A stretch of DNA of 50,328 bases from a virus, in IMG/VR virus record IMGVR_UViG_3300037200_000052, positions 1-50,328 of that record; one strand, written 5' to 3'. Of the stretch, positions 13,532 through 33,501 are shown piece by piece; the first letter of the stretch is position 1, and each line of letters starts with the position of its first letter. The notes under the pieces were generated by a model. It worked only from the letters and a program-made list of their open reading frames with translations. It searched no databases and was not told where the DNA came from. A program made the translations under genes and the position numbers.

Positions 13532-14266
13532 ATGAAAGCCATCGGTTACATCCGCGTGTCCACCGAAGAACAGGCCCGGGACGGTCAATCCCTCGAACGC
13601 CAGCAAGCCCTGATCCGCGCCGAGTCGGACCGCCAGCACTGGGAACTGACTTCCATCCTCCGCGATGAAGGCGTGTCCGGCGGCAAACCCGCCGCCAAAC
13701 GCCCCGGGTTCTCGGCTCTCACCGACGCCATCCGAACGCGCGCCGCCGAAGTCGTTGTTGTCTCGGACATCTCCCGTCTCTCCCGCAGCCAGAAAGATAC
13801 CCTGATCTTCATCGAGGACGTGTGCCTGCCTTCGCACGCGCACCTGTATGCCATCGACAAGGGGTTCATCGAGAACAATACCGTGTCCGGTACCATGGAT
13901 CTCACCCTGCGCTCCCTGTTGGCCGAGGTTTACCGCAAGGAGATCAGTGAAAAAACCCTCCGGGCCATGGCCTTCAAACGTCAGCGCGGGGAATTGCTCG
14001 GGGGCTCAGGGCCTTTCGGGTTTTGCTCGGTCGATAACGGTAAACGTCGCATCGACCGGGATGGCCAGGAACGTATCATTTTCGACCTGGTACCATTGCC
14101 AGAAGAGCAGGCCACCATCCATAGGATTACAGCCCTTCACAAAGCAGGCGCCAGCCTTGCCGTTATCGCCCGCATACTCACCACCGATCTAGTCCCCACA
14201 AAACAGGGCAACTCACTCTGGTATCCATCTCAAATTAAAAGACTTGTAGAAAGAAAACAGCTATGA
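13532..14266 (+). CDS. Short serine recombinase
   Basis: A 244-residue site-specific recombinase. The N-terminal resolvase domain is intact: MKAIGYIRVSTEEQ places the catalytic Ser at 10, with SLERQQALI and SDISRLSRSQKDT following. A recombinase-type domain follows from about residue 140 (GFCSVDNGKR...AVIARILTTDLVPTKQGNSLWYPSQIKRLVERKQL). The zinc ribbon and coiled coil of large serine integrases are missing, so it is about half their length. It begins the only plus-strand operon near the terminase genes, divergent from terL, and is coupled by ATGA to the next gene. Confidence 0.85.
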   Translation: MKAIGYIRVSTEEQARDGQSLERQQALIRAESDRQHWELTSILRDEGVSGGKPAAKRPGFSALTDAIRTRAAEVVVVSDISRLSRSQKDTLIFIEDVCLPSHAHLYAIDKGFIENNTVSGTMDLTLRSLLAEVYRKEISEKTLRAMAFKRQRGELLGGSGPFGFCSVDNGKRRIDRDGQERIIFDLVPLPEEQATIHRITALHKAGASLAVIARILTTDLVPTKQGNSLWYPSQIKRLVERKQL

Positions 14267-14646: not shown

Positions 14647-14780
14647 TGTCCCGCCCACGCAAATCTTCCAAAGGCAAGGTCATCAAAATATCCGTTTCCA
14701 TCACGCCGGAAGCCCTCAAAAAACTGCCCAAAAAAGGCCGAAGCGCGTTCGTTGACCGGTTACTCCTGAGAAAGGGGTAG
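14646..14780 (+). CDS. Small ribbon-helix-helix-like DNA-binding protein, 44 aa
   Basis: The ORF starts at the ATG of a TAATG overlap. After a basic arm (MSRPRKSSKGK) comes a short strand (VIKISVSI), a helix (TPEALKKL) and a second helix (GRSAFVDRLLLRKG). This is the ribbon-helix-helix layout of Arc/CopG repressors. Being last in the recombinase operon it may autoregulate it. A palindrome (14798-14815) lies 18 nt beyond its stop. Confidence 0.65.
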   Translation: MSRPRKSSKGKVIKISVSITPEALKKLPKKGRSAFVDRLLLRKG

Positions 14781-14791
14781 TGGGCTACTTT
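14777..14791 (+). repeat. Dispersed 15-bp repeat GTAGTGGGCTACTTT, copy a
   Basis: The copy covers the TAG stop of the 44-residue RHH-like gene. An identical copy is at 26050-26064. One-mismatch and two-mismatch copies on the opposite strand are at 26433-26447 and 16922-16936. The GTAG/CTAC arms could form a tetraloop hairpin. Confidence 0.55.
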
Positions 14792-14797
14792 ACGTAT

Positions 14798-14820
14798 AGT
14801 GCGTAATTACGCACTTTTTA
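14798..14820 (+). terminator. Palindrome AGTGCGTAATTACGCACT with T-run: terminator or operator
   Basis: A perfect 18-bp palindrome (14798-14815) is followed on the plus strand by a T-rich run (TTTTA). It follows the end of the recombinase operon by 18 nt, so it can serve as a Rho-independent terminator. An exact second copy lies at 33484-33501, again followed by T's on the strand that is ending transcription there. Exact conservation of both arms and centre also fits a repressor operator. Confidence 0.55.
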
Positions 14821-14837: not shown

Positions 14838-14903
14838 CGGTGCAATTAGTTGCACCCGGCACCCCCGAAACCTTAGCAAAAGTGGAGAATTTGGCGCCAG
14901 CCA
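14838..14903 (+). repeat. 66-bp exact copy of part of the gene at 25000-25809, inverted
   Basis: All 66 bases equal the reverse complement of 25485-25550, which lies inside an early gene and encodes VQLVAPGTPETLAKVENLAP. Here the frame is not embedded in a full gene, has no ribosome site, and the flanking sequence diverges at once. The segment begins with a small dyad (GGTGCAA, TTAG, TTGCACC). It may be a recombination scar, a regulatory decoy or one arm of an invertible segment. Confidence 0.85.
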
Positions 14904-15723: not shown

Positions 15724-15887
15724 TGTGTAAATAAAGGCAGAATCGTGTCGGAAAATCATACATTGAGTTGCAAGGGGTTACGCAATATGCGTCGGGATTG
15801 ATTACATGTCGGAAAACCTTACATATCAATTCATTAGGGAAATTGCGAGGTTGTAAGTGGCATGGGGAGTGCTATTGAAGGGGAGCA
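15724..15887 (+). repeat. Cassette leader repeat, copy 1
   Basis: First of three near-identical leaders (others at 16954-17105 and 18682-18832), each directly in front of a plus-strand gene. The conserved core runs from the TGTCGGAAAA box at 15746 to GGGGAGTGCT. Two direct boxes TGTCGGAAAATCATACAT (15746) and TGTCGGAAAACCTTACAT (15807) lie 61 bp apart within it. A TTGATT hexamer precedes the second box. It likely holds promoter and operator sites. Confidence 0.85.
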
Positions 15888-16105
15888 TGAAAAACAAAAA
15901 CATTCCGAGCGGAGTCCGAAACGCAGCAATCCACGTTTACCAGTCCGGCGCAGAGGTCGGTCGGGAGCCGATAGACTTTTCGCAGTACCGTCTGTGGGCC
16001 GAAGTCCCGAGCGAAGTGTGTGAGGCGCACCGAGTCCTGACCGCTGAGCAGATCGCACGATTCGGCCTCCAGCCCGATACCACGATCTTCGCAATTGAGG
16101 GCTGA
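15888..16105 (+). CDS. Cassette A gene 1, unknown protein, 72 aa
   Basis: The start is ATG 15888 (MKNKNIPSGVRNAAIHVYQS) just after leader copy 1, behind GGGGAG. The product is a small mixed-charge protein with VCEAHRVLTAEQIARFGLQP near its end. It ends in IFAIEG. The last 16 coding bases before the final codon equal those of the first gene of cassette B (17460-17475), which suggests the two cassettes share a frame with replaced contents. No family is recognised. Confidence 0.65.
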
Positions 16106-16437: not shown

Positions 16438-16761
16438 ATGGAGACCTTGCTCGTGTCGCGTGATGTCCGGTTCCGGTGCCCGCATTGCCACAAATGGATG
16501 CGGGTCCTGAAGCCGAATGCACCTCCTGACCGGCGTGCGCTGCTGTCGGGCGATCCGGGAGCACCACGGCGTCCGGGCAGGCTCAGAGGCAGCCGCAACA
16601 GACACCTGCATGGACACCAGAATCCGGCCCTGTGCGCCGAAATACACCGGATGCGACGTGGTGGCTCGACCCTACAGGCCATTGGCACCCGATTCTGCCT
16701 CACGCGCGAGCGGGTCAGGCAACTTTTGCGGGATTTCGACCCCGACGGCAGGCGAAGATGA
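16438..16761 (+). CDS. Zinc-knuckle protein with sigma70 region 4-like helix-turn-helix
   Basis: About 107 residues from ATG 16438; an in-frame ATG at 16417 is also possible. Near the N-terminus lies CPHCHKWM, a CxxC zinc-knuckle-like segment. A Pro/Arg-rich linker follows. The C-terminal part STLQAIGTRFCLTRERVRQL matches the helix-turn-helix of sigma70 region 4, which reads the -35 box. A -35-binding regulator is plausible, perhaps acting on the cassette leaders. It overlaps the next gene by ATGA. Confidence 0.65.
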   Translation: METLLVSRDVRFRCPHCHKWMRVLKPNAPPDRRALLSGDPGAPRRPGRLRGSRNRHLHGHQNPALCAEIHRMRRGGSTLQAIGTRFCLTRERVRQLLRDFDPDGRRR

Positions 16762-16928
16762 AATGTCCTCATTGTCAGCGTGAGATAAACGTCGGTTCGT
16801 TGCTCGGGCCGATCCGTAGCGAACGCAAGGCCGCGTCCAGCCGAGCCAACGGTCTGAGACCCTGTGCGCCCGGCAAACACCGTGGCCGGCCAAAAAAACT
16901 GAGCGATAAAGGTGCAGTTTCAAAATAG
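16758..16928 (+). CDS. Zinc-ribbon/AT-hook-like small protein, paralogue 1
   Basis: A 56-residue protein starts MKCPHCQREINVGSLLG. A CxxC knuckle is followed by a basic stretch and the AT-hook-like HRGRPKKLSDK. The gene at 18535-18678 encodes a clear paralogue (MKCPHCKRSLNVGALLGSI...GGRPRKK). Both close a cassette just before the next leader. A minor-groove DNA-binding role is inferred. The stop overlaps a copy of the 15-bp dispersed repeat. Confidence 0.65.
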   Translation: MKCPHCQREINVGSLLGPIRSERKAASSRANGLRPCAPGKHRGRPKKLSDKGAVSK

Positions 16929-16936
16929 GCCACTAC
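16922..16936 (-). repeat. Dispersed 15-bp repeat, variant copy d
   Basis: On the minus strand it reads GTAGTGGCCTATTTT, two mismatches from copy a. It covers the TAG stop of the gene at 16758-16928. Confidence 0.45.
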
Positions 16937-16953
16937 CTGGATTTCTGTCGGAT

Positions 16954-17105
16954 TGCCAGAATGTCGTCGGAAAATCAGACATTGAGTTGCAAGGGGTTAC
17001 AGAAACAGCGTCGGGATTGATTACATGTCGGAAAACCTTACATATCAATTCATTAAGGAAATTGCATGGTTGGAAGTGGCATGAGGAGTGCTATTCAGAG
17101 GGAGT
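16954..17105 (+). repeat. Cassette leader repeat, copy 2
   Basis: Nearly identical to copies 1 and 3 over about 130 bp, with both TGTCGGAAAA-type boxes (the first as CGTCGGAAAA). It differs from copies 1 and 3 at the CGCAATATGCG stretch, here AGAAACAGCG, so that small dyad is not essential. It contains a possible leader ORF beginning MVGSGMRSAI. Confidence 0.85.
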
Positions 17106-17480
17106 ATGAAAATGAAACTTAGCAAAAATGACCGAAACGATCCGCGCTCGCCAATTTGGAAGCGGCTCTATGCTTGCCTTACCAAAAACAGTTTTCGGGT
17201 GGGCAATTCGAGTTTTCCATTTAGTGGCGACGCTTGGAACACCTGCAGCATCGCCGGCCTTGACTCGCCGGAGGTGAATAGAAGCCTTCAAAAGCTACTG
17301 GAACACACCAAGCGGGGTCGGGAACGCGAAATGATTCTTATCTGCGCTGAACTCGGGCGCTTCTGGCTCGATGCACCAGAAAATAGTCGCCATCTATGCC
17401 GCGCCGACGTTCAGAAAAGCGTCGATGGACTCACGGCTATTGCTAACCGATACGTCGAAATCTTCGCAATTGAGGTCTGA
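17106..17480 (+). CDS. Cassette B gene 1, unknown protein, 124 aa
   Basis: The start is ATG 17106 (MKMKLSKNDRNDPRSPIWKR), directly after leader copy 2 and GGGAG. The product is helical with several Trp and Cys. It ends YVEIFAIEV, sharing its last codons at DNA level with cassette A gene 1. No family is recognised. The middle (LDSPEVNRSLQKLLEHTKRG, LGRFWLDAPENSRHLCRADV) suggests a small helical bundle. Confidence 0.65.
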   Translation: MKMKLSKNDRNDPRSPIWKRLYACLTKNSFRVGNSSFPFSGDAWNTCSIAGLDSPEVNRSLQKLLEHTKRGREREMILICAELGRFWLDAPENSRHLCRADVQKSVDGLTAIANRYVEIFAIEV

Positions 17481-17530: not shown

Positions 17531-18160
17531 ATGATCAAAAAACTCGGAACCATTGAGCAAGAGGTCAAAGCCTGCCGCGAAGCTTTTGCCGCCTCAAAAG
17601 TAGGCGATATGGTATGGCTTTGCCACCATGGAGTGCTTTGCGAGGATCTTACCGAGCCCCCAGAGGCCAGAATTGCCTACATTTTGGCATACAAGCCGGA
17701 ACATGAGCAAGCCCGACGGTTGCGCGAGTTTCGTCCGGTCAAAAGCAAAAAGGCCGTCGCCAAATGGCAGGCCGAGTGCGACGCGATGAGCGCCAAACGG
17801 CAGGCCAAGCGCGACGCGGTGAGCGCCAAATGGCGGGCCAAACGCGATGCGGTTGCCGCCAAATGGCGGCCCGGGTACGACGCGGTGAACGCCAAATGGC
17901 AGGCCAAACACGACGCGGTGGACGCCAAATGGCAGGCCGAGTGCGACGCGGTTGCCGCCAAATGGCGGGCCGAGCTCGACGCGGCGGACGCCAAATGGCA
18001 GGCCGAGCGCGATGCGGTGGCCGCCAAATGGCGGGCCGAGCGCGATGCGATGAACGCCAGATGGCGGGCCGAGGACGACGCGATGGATGCCAAACTGGAA
18101 GCACTGCACAAAAAAGAATATCCGTTCACGCGCTGGAACGGAAAGACGATGTTTGTCTGA
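17531..18160 (+). CDS. Hendecad-repeat coiled-coil protein
   Basis: A 209-residue protein starts at ATG 17531 behind GGAG. Residues 1-76 form a non-repeated domain (VGDMVWLCHHGVLCEDLTEP). Then ten copies of an 11-residue unit follow, of the type AKWQAECDAVA, with Trp at the third place, and a short tail (HKKEYPFTRWNGKTMFV). Eleven-residue repeats usually form right-handed coiled coils. Repeats are nearly identical in DNA, so the number of units may vary. Partner and role are unknown. Confidence 0.75.
   Translation: MIKKLGTIEQEVKACREAFAASKVGDMVWLCHHGVLCEDLTEPPEARIAYILAYKPEHEQARRLREFRPVKSKKAVAKWQAECDAMSAKRQAKRDAVSAKWRAKRDAVAAKWRPGYDAVNAKWQAKHDAVDAKWQAECDAVAAKWRAELDAADAKWQAERDAVAAKWRAERDAMNARWRAEDDAMDAKLEALHKKEYPFTRWNGKTMFV
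17759..18088 (+). repeat. Ten 33-bp tandem repeats inside the coiled-coil gene
   Basis: Units begin GCCAAATGGCAGGCCGAG and encode A-K-W-[QR]-A-[EK]-x-D-A-x-x. Changes are mostly confined to codons 7 and 10-11. The 33-bp period is a multiple of three, so other frames remain open as well and produce false ORFs. Confidence 0.85.
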
Positions 18161-18269: not shown

Positions 18270-18473
18270 TGGAATCTAAAATTTGAGAGCGGCGTTTGCT
18301 GGCGTCAGCCGGGCGCAAGGAAGCCCGTTGAGTTTGACACGGTAGAGTTGGCTTTGGCTTCCGCCAAAACTTCCGCAGATCAACTAGCGCGTGCTGGCTA
18401 TGCCAGTGAAGCGCGTTTGTTCAAAGCGGCACAAGCGGTCAAGATTGATATGCGCTGGGGAAAGGACAAATGA
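18264..18473 (+). CDS. Cassette B gene 3, unknown protein, 69 aa
   Basis: GTG start at 18264 with AAGGA correctly spaced. The small alpha/beta protein has VELALASAKTSADQLARAGY and a C-terminal KIDMRWGKDK. It resembles short phage proteins with one sheet and a helix but has no known family. About 60 nt separate it from the zinc-ribbon paralogue. Confidence 0.6.
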   Translation: MKWNLKFESGVCWRQPGARKPVEFDTVELALASAKTSADQLARAGYASEARLFKAAQAVKIDMRWGKDK

Positions 18474-18534
18474 ACCGACTCTCCAATACTGACCGCTCGC
18501 GGGTTGTTGCCTGCATTGTCGAGGACAACAGCCG

Positions 18535-18678
18535 ATGAAATGCCCACATTGTAAGCGGAGTCTGAATGTCGGGGCTTTGCTTGGCTCGATAAAGTCCAAG
18601 GCCAAATCCGATGCGTCGCGCCAGAACGGGAAGCTTGGGGGACGCCCTCGAAAGAAGCCCACCGAACAGAAGGGTTAA
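18535..18678 (+). CDS. Zinc-ribbon/AT-hook-like small protein, paralogue 2
   Basis: A 47-residue ORF from ATG 18535 to TAA 18678. It is a paralogue of the protein at 16758-16928: both share M-K-C-P-H-C, the N-V-G-[SA]-L-L-G segment and a basic G-R-P-[KR]-K AT-hook-like motif. It closes cassette B, four bases before leader copy 3. No ribosome site stands out. Confidence 0.65.
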   Translation: MKCPHCKRSLNVGALLGSIKSKAKSDASRQNGKLGGRPRKKPTEQKG

Positions 18679-18681
18679 TAA

Positions 18682-18832
18682 TGTGTAAAGAAAGGCAGAA
18701 TCGTGTCGGAAAAGCAGACATTGAGTTGCAACGGGTTACGCAATATGCGTCGGGATTGATTACATGTCGGAAAACCTTACATATCAATTCCTTGGGCAAA
18801 TTGCATGGTTGGACCTGGCATGAGGAGTGCTA
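18682..18832 (+). repeat. Cassette leader repeat, copy 3
   Basis: Copy 3 shares the upstream TGTGTAAA...AAAGGCAGAATCG stretch with copy 1 and the GCATGGTTGG stretch with copy 2. It therefore looks like the common ancestor type or a recombinant. It leads straight into the gene at 18836. The possible leader ORF here reads MVGPGMRSANYV and overlaps that gene's start. Confidence 0.85.
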
Positions 18833-18835
18833 ACT

Positions 18836-19192
18836 ATGTATGAAATGAACAAAATCAAACACAATAATAACTGCGGAGAGAGAAGGCAGGAGAACCAAAT
18901 GAATTACGAAAATCGAAAATACGGAATCAAAATTGAAGGGGATACAATCACCGCCCATTTTGGTGCGTTTGACCAAAACGAATACCGCACCCAAGCTAAC
19001 ACCGAAGTATGGGGATACCCAGCGAAAACCATCGCCTTCTGGAAAAGCCCGAAGTCGCGGGGGGGAGGATGGGTTGGCGTGAATCTCGAAACCGATGCCG
19101 TTTCCAACCACACCGAGCTTTATCTTCTTCTTCACGAACTTCGGGGCGAGTCCCAAACCGGTGACGCCGTGGACAAGGCAGGTGGGGAGTGA
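18836..19192 (+). CDS. Cassette C gene 1, unknown protein, 118 aa
   Basis: ATG 18836 follows AGGAG with 8-nt spacing. A second in-frame ATG at 18899 (MNYENRKYGIKIEGDTITAH) has an even better AGGAG with 6-nt spacing and would give 97 residues. The sequence is beta-rich with a Gly/Trp loop (SRGGGWVGVNLE). No family is recognised. The next gene overlaps by GTGA. Confidence 0.65.
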   Translation: MYEMNKIKHNNNCGERRQENQMNYENRKYGIKIEGDTITAHFGAFDQNEYRTQANTEVWGYPAKTIAFWKSPKSRGGGWVGVNLETDAVSNHTELYLLLHELRGESQTGDAVDKAGGE

Positions 19193-22179: not shown

Positions 22180-22271
22180 AGTAGCTCTCCGTTCGTATCG
22201 CTGGCCGTGTCAATCCCCCGTCCGCACCCGCATTCCCACTGCCAGTTTGTTCCCTCCTTGTCCTCAAACAT
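22176..22271 (-). CDS. 31-aa coupled small protein
   Basis: MFEDKEGTNWQWECGCGRGI begins inside the end of the primase gene, and its TGA overlaps the ATG of the helicase gene. It contains a C-G-C knuckle. Coupling on both sides argues that it is translated. Confidence 0.5.
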   Translation of the reverse strand: MFEDKEGTNWQWECGCGRGIDTASDTNGELL

Positions 22272-23103
22272 GGTGAGCCTTTCGTTTCACTTTTCCGGGT
22301 ACGCTCCAGATAAAATTCCGAAGCATTGATTCCAGTTCGTCCCTGGTTCCCCCCGCTTTCAAAAAATCGCGCAGGTCTTTGCCGACGGGCGGAAATACTA
22401 TCACGCTCGGTACGGTCAAGACCTTCTGTAGTTTCTCCGCACCACGTAACCCGGCCTCGTTCTCGTCCACGTCGGCGCAAATAACAACTCGCCGGATACG
22501 GTTGAGTCTCACGTACTCGACTGCCATCTCGTCACACGCGCTGCAATTTGGCCTGCCAATCGCGCCCAGTCCTAGCGTCAGGGCGGCACTGAGACTGGTT
22601 GGGCCTTCCACCAGCCAAAGCGGTTGCTTGTTGTCTACGGGCATCGTGGAGCGAAATAACGCGTTCCTTGAGCCGGTCCATGCGTATTTGTCGCCTTCCA
22701 GTGTCCTTATCCGTATCCCGACGATCTTCCCCTTGGCGTCGTACATCGGGAACCCCCAAGCTTGGCGCTCCGGTATCCAACATGCCCCAATCATCCACAA
22801 TGCCCCGCCTTCAACGCCCAAGGCATCGCCAAGCTCGTTAACCCGTTTCGGTGTTGTCTTGTCCTTCCATCCTCGCCACAAGGCTCCGGCGTCGATTGTG
22901 ACGGGTTTTTTAGGCTTCCGCGTTACGGGAATTCCCGCAACGGGGTTCGCGGCCGTATGCAACCATCCGCCGTTTTTCAGCGGCCTGTCACTCGTCAGTC
23001 TCATGCAACAGTATTTCCCATCATCCGTGTACGTGCACCAGTCCGGTTTCTTGCACCCTTCGCATGGTCGTTTCTTGCTGACTCTGTGCCAGACCTGATT
23101 CAT
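22264..23103 (-). CDS. DnaG-type primase with zinc finger and TOPRIM domain
   Basis: About 279 residues from ATG 23103, which overlaps the upstream TGA as ATGA; an ATG at 23118 is possible. A Cys cluster (CEGCKKPDWCTYTDDGKYCC) forms the N-terminal zinc finger. The TOPRIM core has the acidic motif in LWLVEGPTSLSAALTLGLGA and the D-x-D in VVICADVDENEAGLRGAEKL. It makes primers for phage replication. The helicase-binding C-terminal domain is lacking; the helicase genes flank it instead. Confidence 0.8.
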   Translation of the reverse strand: MNQVWHRVSKKRPCEGCKKPDWCTYTDDGKYCCMRLTSDRPLKNGGWLHTAANPVAGIPVTRKPKKPVTIDAGALWRGWKDKTTPKRVNELGDALGVEGGALWMIGACWIPERQAWGFPMYDAKGKIVGIRIRTLEGDKYAWTGSRNALFRSTMPVDNKQPLWLVEGPTSLSAALTLGLGAIGRPNCSACDEMAVEYVRLNRIRRVVICADVDENEAGLRGAEKLQKVLTVPSVIVFPPVGKDLRDFLKAGGTRDELESMLRNFIWSVPGKVKRKAHHV

Positions 23104-23234
23104 CTTCCGTAAAACCATCCTTCGCAGTCGGTATGAAGATATACGTCAAACTCCGTGCCGGTCTTTTCTCTGACCAGTACCCAGTGGACCGGGTTTTCGG
23201 TTACGGGTTTGTTGCAGTGGAAGCAGAGGGTCAG
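23100..23234 (-). CDS. 44-aa zinc-binding protein with probable CTG start
   Basis: The frame (LTLCFHCNKPVTENPVHWVL) is bounded upstream by a stop with no ATG, GTG or TTG available. A CTG at 23234 overlaps the helicase stop (CTGA) and has GGAG seven bases ahead. The end overlaps the primase ATG (ATGA). C-x-x-C and H-x-x-x-C near the end suggest a zinc site. If the CTG is not used, the frame would be untranslated. Confidence 0.5.
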   Translation of the reverse strand: MTLCFHCNKPVTENPVHWVLVREKTGTEFDVYLHTDCEGWFYGR

Positions 23235-25003
23235 ATCAAATCTCCGTTGGTTTCAGATTGTGGAATTTTGTTGTTGACACCAGAAAAATTTTGCCCTATA
23301 TCCGGATCCACGTTGCAAGTATGAGAGTCAGATTGGGTGTCTGGTGGTTGAGTTGCAGTCTGGTCGTTTCCTTCTGGCCAGCGTTTCCCGTTCTTAACAC
23401 ATCCATCAATCAGGCGGGAGGCTTCCCACTTCACCAGATTCGGATCGTCGTACACTTCCTTCGGAGCCTTGCAATACTTTAGAAAGTTTCGCTGCGGTAG
23501 AGTCGCTGAAATCAGTTCCTTGTGTCGGGTGAGGTTCTCCATGATGGTGTGATCGTCCGGGTTCCATCCGTTCTTGATGAGCCGATCCCTCTGTTTCCGG
23601 CTGAGGCGTGGCCCCTGTTGAAACCCTTCCCATTTCTGGGCGTGTTTGTGGTAAGCCTCAAAGGGATCAACGTAGGTTGCGCGGAATGACGCTTTCGCTT
23701 TGATGCCTTTTCTGACTTCCGTTTCCGCGTCAATCAGTTCCGCCAATATATCCCCGCGTCCGGCTTTCTCGACTTTCTCTCTGGCCTTGGCCTTGGCTTC
23801 CTCGGAGAAATTCCCACCCAACACGTCAACGCTGCTTATTGTCAGTTTGTGGCGTAGAGCGTTCCCCTTGAAATCCAGTACCAACACATTCGGTTTCGGA
23901 CTGGCGGCGATGGCGGAACGCCTCTCCTCAGCGGTCGGATATTGGTCTACCAGTCCGCTCAATGGTCGAGTGCCACGCCCCAACATCTGAGTGTAAAGCG
24001 ACCGGCTCAAAGTCGGGCGTGCAACAACGATTGCCTCAATGCCGGGAACATCGACACCCTCAGTCACGACTCCAACATTAACGAGAAACTGAATCTCTCC
24101 GTTATGAAACCTCTTGAATGTATCCCGTCGTGTATCCTCCGGTGTATTACCAAAAACGGTTGCTGCACAATTGGGTTTATACCGATTGAAAATCTCTGCA
24201 TACCGTTCAGCCTGCTTGACAGTGACGGCAAACACAAGCGTCCGCTTGTCGCCCACGGTCTGTAAGGTTGAGTCCGCGATTCCCAAAAGAGGCTTTTCTT
24301 CCTCCAGCACATCTGCCAGATCGCGCTGGTTGAAATCTCCGGCCGTTACCCGGCAATTCGAGAAGTCCAACCCGTCAATTTTCACCAGGCGTTGATCGAC
24401 ATTGACGAGCCAGCCTTCCTGTATCAGATATTGAATGTGGATATTGAAGGCTACGGCGTCGATGATTCTCGCCAGTGCTTTTCCATCGTGACGGTCGGGA
24501 GTGGCGCTGCATCCGAAAAACTTCAGGTTCTGATTTTGCTTGAAGTGATTGATGATTGTCTGGAATTTTGGCGAGACGAAATGGTGCACCTCATCGACCC
24601 ACAGCATTTCAAACTCAGCCGGGTCAAACCGTTTCAATCTAGCCCCATCTCGTGAGTACAAAGTTTGGGGCGTACCTATCACCACTTGATTTCGGTTCCA
24701 CAGCTTCACGGAAGCGCAGCGATCCGCTTTTTCGATGTCGGCTCGGATTCCAAATTGCGCCAGCCGATTCCTGGCTTGTTCGACAAGTTCGTTTCTGTGA
24801 CATACCACGAATGTCCGGCAACCACGACGACGGATCAGTTCGCAGGCTACCTGAGTCTTGCCGCCACCAGTTGCCATGCAACCCAAAACAGAGTTGTGGG
24901 TCTGCCATTTCGATTCGACATCATCAGCCGCTTGCACCTGATAGGGACGCAACACACATGGAGATTCCGGCTTTGCTACCAGCGTGAAAAGGTCTTCAGT
25001 CAC
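23231..25003 (-). CDS. SF2 helicase, type III restriction-like
   Basis: In this 590-residue protein Walker A (ATGGGKT, residues 44-50), DEVHHF, GCSATPDRHD, EGVDVPGIEA and QMLGRGTRPL give the full set of SF2 motifs as in UvrB/RES-type helicases. The C-terminal 200 residues are unique and helical, perhaps for DNA or partner binding. The start is GTG 25003 in a GTGA overlap with the upstream gene. Confidence 0.85.
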   Translation of the reverse strand: MTEDLFTLVAKPESPCVLRPYQVQAADDVESKWQTHNSVLGCMATGGGKTQVACELIRRRGCRTFVVCHRNELVEQARNRLAQFGIRADIEKADRCASVKLWNRNQVVIGTPQTLYSRDGARLKRFDPAEFEMLWVDEVHHFVSPKFQTIINHFKQNQNLKFFGCSATPDRHDGKALARIIDAVAFNIHIQYLIQEGWLVNVDQRLVKIDGLDFSNCRVTAGDFNQRDLADVLEEEKPLLGIADSTLQTVGDKRTLVFAVTVKQAERYAEIFNRYKPNCAATVFGNTPEDTRRDTFKRFHNGEIQFLVNVGVVTEGVDVPGIEAIVVARPTLSRSLYTQMLGRGTRPLSGLVDQYPTAEERRSAIAASPKPNVLVLDFKGNALRHKLTISSVDVLGGNFSEEAKAKAREKVEKAGRGDILAELIDAETEVRKGIKAKASFRATYVDPFEAYHKHAQKWEGFQQGPRLSRKQRDRLIKNGWNPDDHTIMENLTRHKELISATLPQRNFLKYCKAPKEVYDDPNLVKWEASRLIDGCVKNGKRWPEGNDQTATQPPDTQSDSHTCNVDPDIGQNFSGVNNKIPQSETNGDLI

Positions 25004-25809
25004 TTCTTTTTACCTGGTGAACACGTCTCGAAAAGATACTTGGACAGAAACCCGCGTCCATAACACCGTGTGCAATTCTTGGTGTTCAATCCCCGGCAGA
25101 CATCGCACACGGCATGGGGAATCATCTGTTTCAGGGAAAATCGCAGGGCTTCAATGTCGCTCATGGTCGTATTGGAAAGCTCTCGACTGGCCGGCTCTCG
25201 TTTGTTTGGAGGACAATCCAGATCGCCCACCATGGCCTTCACTTCACCAAGCATCGACCACACCTTCTTGCCGAGTTCCTCTGCTGTCCGCCAGTCCAAC
25301 AAAATCTTTTCGGGAATCGGTGTCCCAAGTTTGTCGAGTTGGATAATGGGTTTTTCTTCGATTTTGGCAGCAGCCTCTTTGACTTCGGTTTTTGCAGCCT
25401 CAATATCCTTTGGTTTGCCACTCTTCGCGCGGGCCAAAATATCGACCTGTTTTGCCGTTGGAATGCCATCCAGAATCTTGCGGGTGGCTGGCGCCAAATT
25501 CTCCACTTTTGCTAAGGTTTCGGGGGTGCCGGGTGCAACTAATTGCACCGCAGTTTTGTCATCCAAAAGCGCTTTTAGTTCGACAATTCGTTGACCCGTT
25601 TTGTAGAGTTGTCGCGCCCATTCCTCGGTGAAACCGCATGATTCCACAAAGTCCTTCCAAGTGTCATGGTGGAGCTTCCACACGCCCGTTGTTTTGGCTT
25701 CGTAATACACTTGGGAAAATAAAATCGTGTGTTTCGCCCAAGAACTGAGGGTCTGGTGAATGCGACGATAATCTTTTTCGGTTGCTGTTGCGGCGAGAGG
25801 GGATGGCAT
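25000..25809 (-). CDS. Helical phage protein with C-terminal DnaJ-like zinc knuckles
   Basis: About 269 residues from ATG 25809 (MPSPLAATATEKDYRRIHQT), just after the stop of the gene upstream. Residues 10-150 resemble the DUF3102-like helical proteins found in phages and plasmids (WKDFVESCGFTEEWARQLYKTG). The C-terminus has CDVCRGLNTKNCTRCYGRGF, a double CxxC as in DnaJ. A 66-bp part of the gene recurs inverted at 14838-14903. Function unknown; DNA binding is likely. Confidence 0.6.
   Translation of the reverse strand: MPSPLAATATEKDYRRIHQTLSSWAKHTILFSQVYYEAKTTGVWKLHHDTWKDFVESCGFTEEWARQLYKTGQRIVELKALLDDKTAVQLVAPGTPETLAKVENLAPATRKILDGIPTAKQVDILARAKSGKPKDIEAAKTEVKEAAAKIEEKPIIQLDKLGTPIPEKILLDWRTAEELGKKVWSMLGEVKAMVGDLDCPPNKREPASRELSNTTMSDIEALRFSLKQMIPHAVCDVCRGLNTKNCTRCYGRGFLSKYLFETCSPGKKK
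25485..25550 (-). repeat. 66-bp repeat, genic copy
   Basis: Exact inverse copy of 14838-14903. Here it lies in frame in the gene at 25000-25809, so this is the probable source. Confidence 0.85.
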
Positions 25810-25810
25810 A

Positions 25811-26038
25811 TCAATTCCTCTCGTTCTGCAATGTTTCGGCGGCGGCAATTATCTCATCGACTTGTTGTTGACCCCACAACTTGTAATGCTTTCGCATCCA
25901 ATCCCACCGAGGCCCTGCTCCATCCTTGTGATCGCGAACATCTCGGAAACCCAAACCCTTATCTAGTATGTCAGCTCTGCATCCCGCCGAATCGTCCACA
26001 GACACAATCATTGTCAGTATCTCCTTGGCGTACATCAT
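25811..26038 (-). CDS. Small unknown protein, 75 aa
   Basis: ATG 26038 follows CCGGAAATTCAC. The product (MMYAKEILTMIVSVDDSAGC...) has WDWMRKHYKLWGQQQVDEII and a helical end. It is encoded tightly between its neighbours in the early operon. No family is recognised. Confidence 0.55.
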   Translation of the reverse strand: MMYAKEILTMIVSVDDSAGCRADILDKGLGFRDVRDHKDGAGPRWDWMRKHYKLWGQQQVDEIIAAAETLQNERN

Positions 26039-26049
26039 GTGAATTTCCG

Positions 26050-26064
26050 GTAGTGGGCTACTTT
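26050..26064 (+). repeat. Dispersed 15-bp repeat, copy b
   Basis: GTAGTGGGCTACTTT, identical to copy a. It covers the stop of the gene at 26058-26414 and, with copy c, frames that gene as an inverted pair. Confidence 0.55.
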
Positions 26065-26414
26065 GTATACAGCGTTTCTTTTTCCTTTACCGAAATGAAT
26101 GCCAAGGCACTAATTTCAGCGGGCGGCTCATTTCCCCAATGTTCTGTATATTCTTCCCCACAATTCAGCCTTTCGTCGGGCCATAGCTGACAAAACGATT
26201 GATGTCTATCAAGCGTGCGCAGATGCAGGTGAATCGTCTGGCACCGCAGGCATCGTTTAATCGTCTCTGCCGAGCCATCAAACACCGTGTTGATTCTGGC
26301 GTAATGCTGACCCTTCGGTATAGACTCTTTACAGGCATCACAGGTATGAGCCTTATTCGCCTTCACCGATTTCTCGTTATAAACAGCGTATTGTTCGTCG
26401 CATTCGTAGCTCAT
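26058..26414 (-). CDS. Cys/His-rich zinc-binding protein, 118 aa
   Basis: The N-terminal half has CDACKESIPKGQHYARIN and CLRCQTIHLHLRTLDRH, two CxxC pairs typical of a zinc domain found in small phage proteins. The C-terminus is hydrophilic. The gene is framed by inverted copies of the 15-bp repeat and preceded by the interleaved dyads at 26471-26569. It could be a cassette inserted into the early operon. Confidence 0.65.
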   Translation of the reverse strand: MSYECDEQYAVYNEKSVKANKAHTCDACKESIPKGQHYARINTVFDGSAETIKRCLRCQTIHLHLRTLDRHQSFCQLWPDERLNCGEEYTEHWGNEPPAEISALAFISVKEKETLYTK

Positions 26415-26423
26415 TTTTAACCT

Positions 26424-26573
26424 TCAATTCTCAAAATAGCCCACTACCGAATTTCCCCCACTCTGAAAAGACAACCCGGTCGCGTCAAGCTGGTCGCAAG
26501 AATGGAATGGGGTGAGGCCCACACTCCTGCGCGACCGGGTTGTAAATTGTTGATTGAAGCGACCAGCTTTCAT
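26424..26573 (-). CDS. Doubtful 49-aa ORF across the dyad region
   Basis: The frame MKAGRFNQQFTTRSRRSVGL to VVGYFEN is open over the whole structured segment, but the GGGAG directly abuts the ATG and the composition is unremarkable. It may be an accident of the repeats. Confidence 0.2.
   Translation of the reverse strand: MKAGRFNQQFTTRSRRSVGLTPFHSCDQLDATGLSFQSGGNSVVGYFEN
26433..26447 (-). repeat. Dispersed 15-bp repeat, copy c
   Basis: On the minus strand it reads GTAGTGGGCTATTTT, one mismatch from copy b, with which it shares an AATTTC-like flank. Confidence 0.55.
26471..26569. other. Two interleaved perfect dyads (pseudoknot-like or switch element)
   Basis: The 14-bp arms ACAACCCGGTCGCG (26471-26484) and CGCGACCGGGTTGT (26530-26543) interlock with the 11-bp arms AAGCTGGTCGC (26487-26497) and GCGACCAGCTT (26559-26569). 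The order 5'A-5'B-3'A-3'B is that of a pseudoknot or of mutually exclusive hairpins. On the minus strand the last arm is followed by CTTTTC. It lies in the leader of the zinc-protein gene. Confidence 0.6.
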
Positions 26574-26605: not shown

Positions 26606-26638
26606 GTCAACGCCTTTCATGGAATCCTGCAACTCAAA
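26606..26638. repeat. 33-bp direct repeat, copy 1
   Basis: Identical to 26677-26709, with a period of 71 bp. It lies at the 3' end of the nuclease-like gene and partly beyond its stop. Confidence 0.85.
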
Positions 26639-27021
26639 CCTTGGTACATGCCCGCCAAAAACATCACGGCATCGACGTCAACGCCTTTCATGGAATCCTG
26701 CAACTCAAATCTCCACACCATTGCCCGACGGATCATGTCCACCGTGGATTGAAGTGTCACATCCTTGGGTTGGACGTAAATTATCCTCCAACCCATTTGA
26801 GCCAGTTCGTTCAGCTTCTCGTATTCCTTGAGCAACGCGGCCCCTTGGGTGTGCCGGCCTCTCACGAACAATCCCCCTTGGACTTCCACCGCCACACGTT
26901 CAGCCGGGAAAGCGATGTCCAGTTTCCACTTACGATCTTTATGAAATTTGTATTCAAATATCGGCGTAGGCAATCCACATTGTTCGTAGTACGCTGTGAC
27001 GATCTTCGTGTTGTACTTCAT
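26617..27021 (-). CDS. PD-(D/E)XK-type endonuclease, C-terminus altered by duplication
   Basis: 134 residues from ATG 27021 (MKYNTKIVTAYYEQCG). The core FEYKFHKDRKWKLDIAFPAE then VAVEVQGG matches the D...E-x-Q pattern of restriction-like nucleases of the VSR/VRR-NUC type. MGWRIIYVQPKDV supplies the later strand. The ending is odd: a 33-bp direct repeat with a 71-bp period shifts the frame, so the last residues (YQGLSCRIP) replace an ancestral end that would have read GVDRK. The core is intact. Confidence 0.65.
   Translation of the reverse strand: MKYNTKIVTAYYEQCGLPTPIFEYKFHKDRKWKLDIAFPAERVAVEVQGGLFVRGRHTQGAALLKEYEKLNELAQMGWRIIYVQPKDVTLQSTVDMIRRAMVWRFELQDSMKGVDVDAVMFLAGMYQGLSCRIP
26677..26709. 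repeat. 33-bp direct repeat, copy 2
   Basis: Second copy of the repeat at 26606-26638, in frame in the nuclease gene. Confidence 0.85.
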
Positions 27022-27025
27022 CTCA

Positions 27026-27631
27026 CTACCCTTTCGTCCCTGGCTTGGGCGAGTCGAGGAAGGAGGCTCTTTTGCGGGCGATCTCATCGGCAAGTGGCCT
27101 TAAGACTTCCAAGTCGTACTCATCAATGCCAGTGAAATCAATCGCACCATATGCCTTCAATACATCCTCAGCCACCTGCTTTTGGTCATGTGCCCTGATG
27201 AACGTGGCGACGGCCAAATAATATCCCCTACGAAACTCACTCACTCCAAATCCACCTCGCTTGTCCTTCTCTTTTGCCGTGCTCGGGCAGTCACCACGTT
27301 TGTTCCTGACCAGCATTTCGGTCAGGTGTTCGTGGAGGGCTTCCAACTCCTTAACCTTTGCCGCCAGCGTGAAAGCATCTTGGCCGTGGGCGCGGGTGTG
27401 CTCGACGATTATTTTCGCACACTCCTTCCTGATTTCACCCGGTGCTGAATGAGCACTTCGGTGATGATAGACAAGTTCTGCCGCCTCCATCTCCTGCTTC
27501 GTCGGCTCCCCCGTGCAAGGCTGGCTGAGTGCGGCGAGGTCGGATTCAGCGGCTAAGGCACGGCGCTTCCACATATCAAGTTCACTTTCTAGTGATTCCC
27601 TTTGATCGTACTTCAGTTGTTCATAGTCCAT
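27026..27631 (-). CDS. Coiled-coil protein of the early operon, 201 aa
   Basis: The N-terminal part (QRESLESELDMWKRRALAAES) and residues 85-110 (AAKVKELEALHEHLTEMLVR) are coiled coil. The rest is helical and acidic. A good AGGGAGA site precedes ATG 27631. No family is recognised; it lies between an unknown Cys-containing protein and the nuclease. Confidence 0.6.
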   Translation of the reverse strand: MDYEQLKYDQRESLESELDMWKRRALAAESDLAALSQPCTGEPTKQEMEAAELVYHHRSAHSAPGEIRKECAKIIVEHTRAHGQDAFTLAAKVKELEALHEHLTEMLVRNKRGDCPSTAKEKDKRGGFGVSEFRRGYYLAVATFIRAHDQKQVAEDVLKAYGAIDFTGIDEYDLEVLRPLADEIARKRASFLDSPKPGTKG

Positions 27632-30644: not shown

Positions 30645-31594
30645 ATTTTGTTTCCTTCCCGATCAACTTCGTAACACTTTCCACCGGTTACGCCTTTGGC
30701 CTTGATCTTCTGTGGGTATGAGCCGTCCGGATGGACTACAATGTCTTGTAGCTTGATGGGACATGCCACAAATTTCTCAGCCGCAGCATTAAATTCCAAG
30801 GTCATTGAAGGGCACGGAGAGAAGTGAAGGCCACCGCCACACTCAACTTTACCACCGTCCCAATCCGGCGCTACCGGTGATGTGCCCGGTTTGTAGCTTG
30901 TGCCTTTTGGAGAAACCCAATCTTTGTTGACCCCTTTGAAAACGACAGCGATTGACTTCGTAACTTTTACACCCCAGAACAAGCACCACTCTTTTGCTGT
31001 CTTGGGTTTAACAGCGATGTGTTTTTGACCTCCCTCGATTGCCTCATTCGATCCGTGTACAATTACAATGACACTGGCGGCACACTTGACTTTTACGGCT
31101 GAGAAAAGGCGAATGAAAACATTTCCCCACGCCACGACGTGCGAGCTTTCCCACGCCACGACGTGCGAGCTTTCCCGCGCCTCGACGTGCGAGCTTTCCC
31201 ACGCCTCGACGTGCGAGCTTTCCCGCGCCTCGACGTGCGAGCTTCCCCACGCCACGACGTGCGAGCTTCCCCACGCCTCGACGTGCGAGCTTTCCCGCGC
31301 CTCGACGTGCGAGCTTTCCCGCGCCTCGACGTGCGAGCTTTCCCACGCCTCGACGTGCGAGCTTCCCCGCGCCTCGACGTGCGAGCTTCCCCACGCCTCG
31401 ACGTGCGAGCTTCCCCACGCCACGACGTGCGAGCTTTCCCACGCCTCGACGTGCGAGCTTCCCCGCGCCTCGACGTTTACGTTGCTTGGAGTGGAAACTG
31501 TAATCCACAAATGCGCACTGGCAATAATTCGTATTTCCAAATGGCCGGCCTTAACGGCTGCATCAAATTCCATCTGTGTGGTAACTTCAATCAT
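30641..31594 (-). CDS. Octapeptide-repeat protein with C-terminal globular domain
   Basis: 317 residues. Residues 1-44 form a lead-in (MIEVTTQMEFDAAVKAGHLE). Then 14 copies of SSHV[EV]A[RW][GE] follow, likely a beta-solenoid or beta-roll. A domain of about 160 residues ends the protein (HIAVKPKTAKEWCLFWGVKV...). Similar repeat proteins occur in phages and plasmids, but their function is not known. The nearly identical units suggest recent expansion. Coupled by ATGA to the neighbouring genes. Confidence 0.7.
   Translation of the reverse strand: MIEVTTQMEFDAAVKAGHLEIRIIASAHLWITVSTPSNVNVEARGSSHVEAWESSHVVAWGSSHVEAWGSSHVEARGSSHVEAWESSHVEARESSHVEARESSHVEAWGSSHVVAWGSSHVEARESSHVEAWESSHVEARESSHVVAWESSHVVAWGNVFIRLFSAVKVKCAASVIVIVHGSNEAIEGGQKHIAVKPKTAKEWCLFWGVKVTKSIAVVFKGVNKDWVSPKGTSYKPGTSPVAPDWDGGKVECGGGLHFSPCPSMTLEFNAAAEKFVACPIKLQDIVVHPDGSYPQKIKAKGVTGGKCYEVDREGNKI
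31124..31459 (-). repeat. Fourteen 24-bp tandem repeats
   Basis: Each unit encodes an octapeptide. Only three places vary: Glu/Val at 5, Arg/Trp at 7 and Gly/Glu at 8. All frames stay open through the array, producing false ORFs on both strands. Confidence 0.9.
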
Positions 31595-33483: not shown

Positions 33484-33501
33484 AGTGCGTAATTACGCAC
33501 T
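33484..33501. promoter_or_regulatory. Palindrome AGTGCGTAATTACGCACT, copy 2
   Basis: Exact copy of 14798-14815. On the minus strand it is followed by TTTTCG, so it can end transcripts from the gene at 33585. Its place upstream of the early promoter also fits an activator or repressor site. Confidence 0.6.

Follow-up and report, generated by a model that had tools for sequence, protein, structure and literature searches.

The window, by which we mean the whole stretch of DNA analysed, comprises the 50,328 bases of a virus record that has a 122-nt terminal repeat and represents a peat-soil phage. At 26471-26569 it contains two perfect dyads, of 14 and 11 bp, which lie in the minus-strand leader between a nuclease-like ORF and the replication genes. 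The leader adjoins a 400-bp cassette that carries a gene for a zinc-binding-type protein, and beyond this lie genes for a 75-aa and a 282-aa protein, a helicase and a primase-like protein (Table 1).

Table 1. Features of the locus, with coordinates in the window, and example elements of the cassette family in other contigs. The arms of the dyads were read from the sequence and with a script.
Feature	Position	Strand	Remarks
Primase-like gene	22264-23118
Helicase gene	23231-25003		ResIII-type
Gene for 282-aa protein	after 25811-26038, before the helicase
Gene for 75-aa protein	25811-26038	-	would have directly followed the dyads before the insertion
Target-site duplication, left copy	26041-26048	+	exact 8 bp, GAATTTCC
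IS1-type cassette	26049-26448	-	400 bp; carries the zinc-protein gene; end repeats and target duplication
Terminal inverted repeat, left	26049-26065		17 bp, GGTAGTGGGCTACTTTG; 16/17 match to right repeat
Cassette cargo gene	26058-26414	-	118-aa zinc-binding-type protein; phrog_7314 (function not known)
Terminal inverted repeat, right	26432-26448		17 bp, CAAAATAGCCCACTACC
Target-site duplication, right copy	26449-26456	+	exact 8 bp, GAATTTCC
14-bp dyad, left arm (B')	26471-26484		ACAACCCGGTCGCG; box AACCCGGTCGCG at 26473-26484
11-bp dyad, left arm (A')	26487-26497		AAGCTGGTCGC, identical to the A' box
14-bp dyad, right arm (B)	26530-26543		CGCGACCGGGTTGT
11-bp dyad, right arm (A)	26559-26569		GCGACCAGCTT
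Two 36-nt direct repeats	26606-26712 (26606-26641 and 26677-26712)	-	35 nt between copies; 3' end of nuclease-like ORF
Nuclease-like ORF	26617-27093	-	leader with dyads lies between this ORF and the replication genes
Example elements	L016: 9512-10092; L045: 7531-8434; L046: 7791-8684; L058: 1224-2192; L070: 3264-5257

The interleaved dyads and their surroundings

The two dyads are interleaved in the order of a pseudoknot, as the first-pass annotation had described, and their coordinates were confirmed both by eye and by script. The arms are separated by 45 nt in the 14-bp dyad and by 61 nt in the 11-bp dyad; all 25 base pairs are Watson-Crick, with neither a G-U pair nor a mismatch in either stem. 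The hexamer GGTCGC is indeed common to both left arms and GCGACC to both right arms, and the longer motif AA.C.GGTCGC is present in all four boxes (consensus AASCYGGTCGCR), two of which point right and two left. Moreover, the bases that differ between the A and B boxes are each mirrored in their own partner arm, which is explained by pairing (or by recent duplication) and not by independent protein sites.

The interleaved perfect dyads are real and well beyond chance. The window has only four perfect inverted repeats that reach 10 bp and span no more than 110 nt, and two of these are the dyads themselves. Among 300 dinucleotide shuffles, four contained a dyad of at least 14 bp and two contained interleaved dyads of 10 bp or more each, and none contained interleaved dyads that were both 11 bp or longer within 110 nt; similarly, 1000 Markov-1 simulated windows gave a dyad of at least 14 bp in 15 cases and interleaved dyads of 11 bp or more each in none. 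Other viral DNA (62 loci, 541,660 bases) yielded 41 dyads of at least 11 bp, eight of at least 14 bp and no interleaved pairs. The occurrence of four GGTCGC/GCGACC hexamers in 99 nt was matched by a single shuffle of the 300.

A scan of the window for sites with up to one mismatch to the box revealed no other site with the GGTCGC core and no second cluster of boxes, which fits a single-locus element; a global regulator with many boxes was rejected on the same ground. Two further candidates were also discarded. The dyads are not the ends of a second mobile element, since neither is flanked by a duplication, and they are not a preferred target of the cassette, since the 170-nt flanks of 19 elements contain perfect dyads of at least 9 bp in just four cases, the present element included, and in this element alone does a dyad exceed 10 bp.

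No relative sharing this leader emerged from the searches. INPHARED gave none by DNA, and five of the six proteins used to search IMG/VR gave no relative; the sixth, the nuclease, gave one distant relative (L003), in which no dyad reaches 11 bp. The portal protein has five matches among 399 class genomes, namely, the metagenome-assembled genome (MAG) holding this virus and four distant ones (30-39% identity), whereas among 257 order genomes the 282-aa protein matches that MAG only. Contig PMSX01000018.1 of the MAG is identical to the virus over the 4933 bases compared, and it thus confirms the sequence while adding no evolutionary information. The MAG contig is labelled as belonging to a Bryobacterales bacterium from palsa; the binning is a hint, albeit not proof, that Bryobacterales are the host.

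The duplicated sequence said to lie beside the dyads is real, and consists of the two 36-nt copies at the 3' end of the nuclease-like ORF, which are identical at 35 of 36 positions. The dimensions of this unit are CRISPR-like, but a CRISPR mini-array was rejected, as the repeat was found in no cellular array. Among genome contigs, its exact 22-nt core is confined to this virus, and with up to three mismatches the repeat occurs in one of 257 order genomes and one of 396 phylum genomes, in each case the MAG holding this virus. Searches of phage and plasmid collections gave nothing convincing (best E 0.3 and above). The repeat might be a duplicate of the nuclease gene's native end, although the related nuclease in L003 stops roughly at the point where the repeat starts.

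A number of other features of the window deserve mention. A gene of the serine-recombinase type for an integrase or invertase (13532-14266; phrog_95, phrog_125) suggests a temperate or inverting virus. An operator-like, 18-bp perfect palindrome, AGTGCGTAATTACGCACT, occurs at 14798-14815 and again, 18.7 kb away, at 33484-33501. Part of the 282-aa gene (25485-25550) recurs, exactly and in inverted orientation, as a 66-nt segment at 14838-14903, which lies 46 nt after a solitary cassette end (14776-14791). Three 161-nt copies (15738-15898, 16957-17117 and 18696-18856; 84-88% identical to the first) are promoter-like in their location and lie in a region rich in short repeats. Coding tandem repeats are found at 17704-18132 (33-nt units) and 31051-31554 (24-nt units), and the MAG contig of the same virus ends within the latter.

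An IS1-type cassette and its family in viral contigs

The dyads had been assigned to the leader of the zinc-protein gene. This is literally so today, but it does not hold for their origin, as the gene sits inside a 400-bp insertion bounded by terminal inverted repeats and an exact target-site duplication. Its stop codon falls within the left terminal repeat, an arrangement that is also seen in L032. On these features of the sequence, the zinc gene appears to be cargo that came in with an IS1-type cassette. The dyads are outside the cassette, 22 nt from its end and 14 nt past the target duplication. When the cassette and one copy of the duplication are removed in silico, the leader runs straight into GTGGGGGAAATTCACATG of the 75-aa gene. 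Given that the zinc gene lies within the insertion, the dyads would predate it and would have led into the 75-aa gene and the replication genes; from the insertion signature, we infer that the dyad element served, or simply preceded, the replication genes before the zinc gene arrived.

The 16-base end motif has five matches in the window with up to three mismatches, against 0.16 expected, and the three further terminal repeats (at 14776, 16922 and 19842) form no pair with a target duplication. The window has no intact transposase, but a remnant that corresponds to the first 22 residues of an IS1-like one was detected at 18470-18535 (E 0.005); within 18470-18681 this transposase start is followed by a small zinc-ribbon ORF that resembles, by eye, ORFs of the long elements L070 and L049. 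A second zinc-ribbon ORF of that kind (16632-16928) ends in the cassette end at 16922-16937.

Across viral contigs, the 17-base end motif GGTAGTGGGCTAYTTTG occurs in 62 stretches (57 contigs), some of which are chance matches. Inward-facing pairs of ends are flanked by an exact 8-bp duplication in 13 of 42 cases, a denominator that includes wrong pairings inside multi-copy loci, compared with 0 of 840 for shifted controls; as L061 and L070 are the same insertion, the 13 duplications represent 12 independent ones. Eight of the 13 duplication-flanked elements are 522-969 bp long and have no transposase match, whereas the remaining five (L049, L061, L070, L074 and L077) contain a transposase. In all three cases tested, this IS1-like transposase, which is borne by the long forms of the family, matches PF03400 above the cut-off; its best NCBIfam match is IS1, with scores of 53.5-64.9 bits that fall below the cut-off of 100, and judging from these matches it appears to be a diverged branch of IS1.

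The cargo of the short elements includes DNA methyltransferases (L020 and L046) and PAPS-reductase-like proteins (L045 and L058), the element in L020 being without a target duplication. A single reading frame covers 89-96% of the element in 7 of the 11 short elements measured, the present one included, and the corresponding fraction is 0.77 for that in L040; in three elements (two in L016 and one in L054), no single frame fills the space (coverage 0.40-0.44). Contig L016 has nine cassette ends within one mismatch.

In the MAG, with up to three mismatches allowed, the end motif gives 42 matches and its reversed control 52, such that the motif is not enriched, although all four matches with up to one mismatch are in the viral contig. 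Relatives of the transposase are encoded by 84 of the 257 order genomes and, therefore, help in trans would be possible. None of six bacterial relatives (L080-L085) is associated with the family ends, nor was another repeat pair with an 8-bp duplication found around any of them; the misses of the latter, blind method mean little, because it looks 900 bases outward and recovered just two of five known viral elements.

The cassettes resemble mobile insertion cassettes and transporter insertion sequences, which are a known concept, and the IS1 family, in that insertion-sequence ends and a target duplication enclose passenger genes and the short forms lack a transposase. They differ in residing in viral contigs, where single phage-type genes fill the space between the 17-bp ends, and in the divergence of their transposase. 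A limited literature search returned no description of IS1-type cassettes in phages, a negative result that carries little weight. From their anatomy and target duplications, the short forms would seem to ferry single phage genes between soil viruses. We lean, with modest confidence, towards an unrecognised gene-shuttling system of soil viruses, in which IS1-type ends would carry single phage genes (for methyltransferases, PAPS-reductase-like proteins and the zinc protein) as compact cassettes, with transposases supplied in trans. In the present virus, one such cassette would have inserted between the replication genes and the interleaved RNA or operator element serving them. As a discovery, the cassette family is better supported than the dyads.

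Possible roles of the dyads

The first-pass annotation envisaged a structured RNA, a translational switch or a multi-site operator. The geometry, the shared hexamers and the non-randomness of the dyads are borne out, and a structured RNA or multi-site operator is best described as possible but unproven. In the predicted fold of the minus strand, on which the neighbouring genes lie, the 14-bp B-B' stem dominates, with a mean pair probability of 0.98; the 11-bp A-A' stem has a probability of about zero in the non-pseudoknotted ensemble, the programs used being unable to score pseudoknots. The predicted energies are -54.2 kcal/mol for the best fold, -44.9 kcal/mol with the A stem forced and -45.8 kcal/mol with both stems forbidden. 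This last fold uses the weaker cross-pairings noted in the first-pass annotation; as the two perfect stems share no bases, a switch would have to rely on topology or on weaker cross-pairings.

By comparison with shuffles, the 191-nt minus-strand leader is not unusually stable (z -0.91; 35 of 200 shuffles equally stable), and the plus strand folds better (z -2.36), though the neighbouring genes are on the minus strand. Rfam has no matches in the window. Old RNA elements often contain a G-U pair or a mismatch, and the exclusively Watson-Crick pairing fits recent copying or constraint at the DNA level at least as well as it fits an old RNA. With the cassette removed and the flanks joined, the ancestral ribosome-binding region is only partly open in the predicted fold.

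The reading that we tentatively prefer is that of a structured RNA leader of the replication genes, which has been cut off from its first gene by the IS1-type cassette. The dyads would then act in cis within the minus-strand leader that separates the nuclease-like gene from the replication genes, the downstream genes presumably forming one operon. During transcription, A would pair first with A' and, once B' emerged, this would pair with B to give a stable stem, perhaps in equilibrium with the pseudoknot. The B stem would end a short way before the ancestral ribosome-binding region, which reads GTGGGGGAAATTCAC-ATG once the flanks are joined, and could thereby tune transcription or translation of the replication genes. 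The later insertion of the zinc-gene cassette between the element and the first gene would mean that the leader now also precedes the zinc gene. This reading is favoured because the dyads exceed chance and occupy a single locus, the box differences are mirrored, the B-B' stem is predicted to be stable and the flanks join; it is disfavoured by the unexceptional minus-strand stability, the better fold of the plus strand, the missing G-U pairs, A stem and Rfam match, the partly open ribosome-binding region, terminator-like matches at chance frequency (see below) and the lack of a relative, and hence of covariation. H-type pseudoknots and structured 5' leader RNAs are a general class, which the dyads resemble in that coding genes are preceded by two stems arranged as A B A' B'; they differ from it in their long loops (15, 32 and 2 nt), in the A stem not being predicted and in belonging to no Rfam family.

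Iteron and multi-box operator or origin sites are likewise a general class, and the four boxes might instead be copies of one DNA site at which a phage protein binds, the whole serving as an operator or replication origin beside the replication genes. The motif common to all four boxes and their clustering beyond that of nearly all shuffles would suit such a site, as would the adjacent helicase and primase-like genes and a pairing that is perfect at the DNA level, and several copies of a short box next to replication genes are also what is seen in iteron-type sites. We nevertheless consider this unlikely, as there are just four boxes, of mixed orientation and irregular spacing, with no second cluster in the window, and their identity is pairwise (14/14 and 11/11) and does not extend to one common consensus. 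Furthermore, the cumulative GC skew falls steadily across the site with no turning point near 26.5 kb, and a phage replication origin is not supported by this measure.

It is also improbable, to our minds, that the dyads are a functionless by-product of the frequent short duplications and inversions in this genome. Copying of this kind is certainly in evidence, as the window holds, in addition to the 66-nt inverted copy and a 33-nt direct repeat next to the dyads (both exact), the three related 161-nt copies and shared stretches of 16 to 19 nt near gene ends, and perfect arms that show no drift would suit recent copying. The order A B A' B', however, would require inverted copying on at least two separate occasions within the same 99 nt, and the 541,660 bases of other viral DNA gave no such pair. 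Finally, a terminator or attenuator of the nuclease-gene transcript, formed by the B stem and the subsequent CUUUUC of the minus strand, is very doubtful: the 14-bp stem is followed by CTTTTC, and one terminator-like match lies at 26492-26472 on the minus strand, but the loop is 45 nt long, only four T residues are consecutive and terminator-like sites occur at the level of chance (two found, mean of 1.3 expected).

Possible implications for phage gene exchange

The dyads by themselves cannot be called a new system; were a function to be shown, they would count as a newly recognised control element in a phage's replication module. Their context, with its cassettes, matters more. Phage genomes are mosaic, and single extra genes appear in them with no obvious vehicle. 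A concrete vehicle for such genes would be provided by cassettes that hold one gene between defined ends and are flanked by 8-bp target duplications, and these lend themselves both to counting in viral databases and to bench experiments. The cassettes also serve as a warning that a structured leader may be older than the gene now following it.
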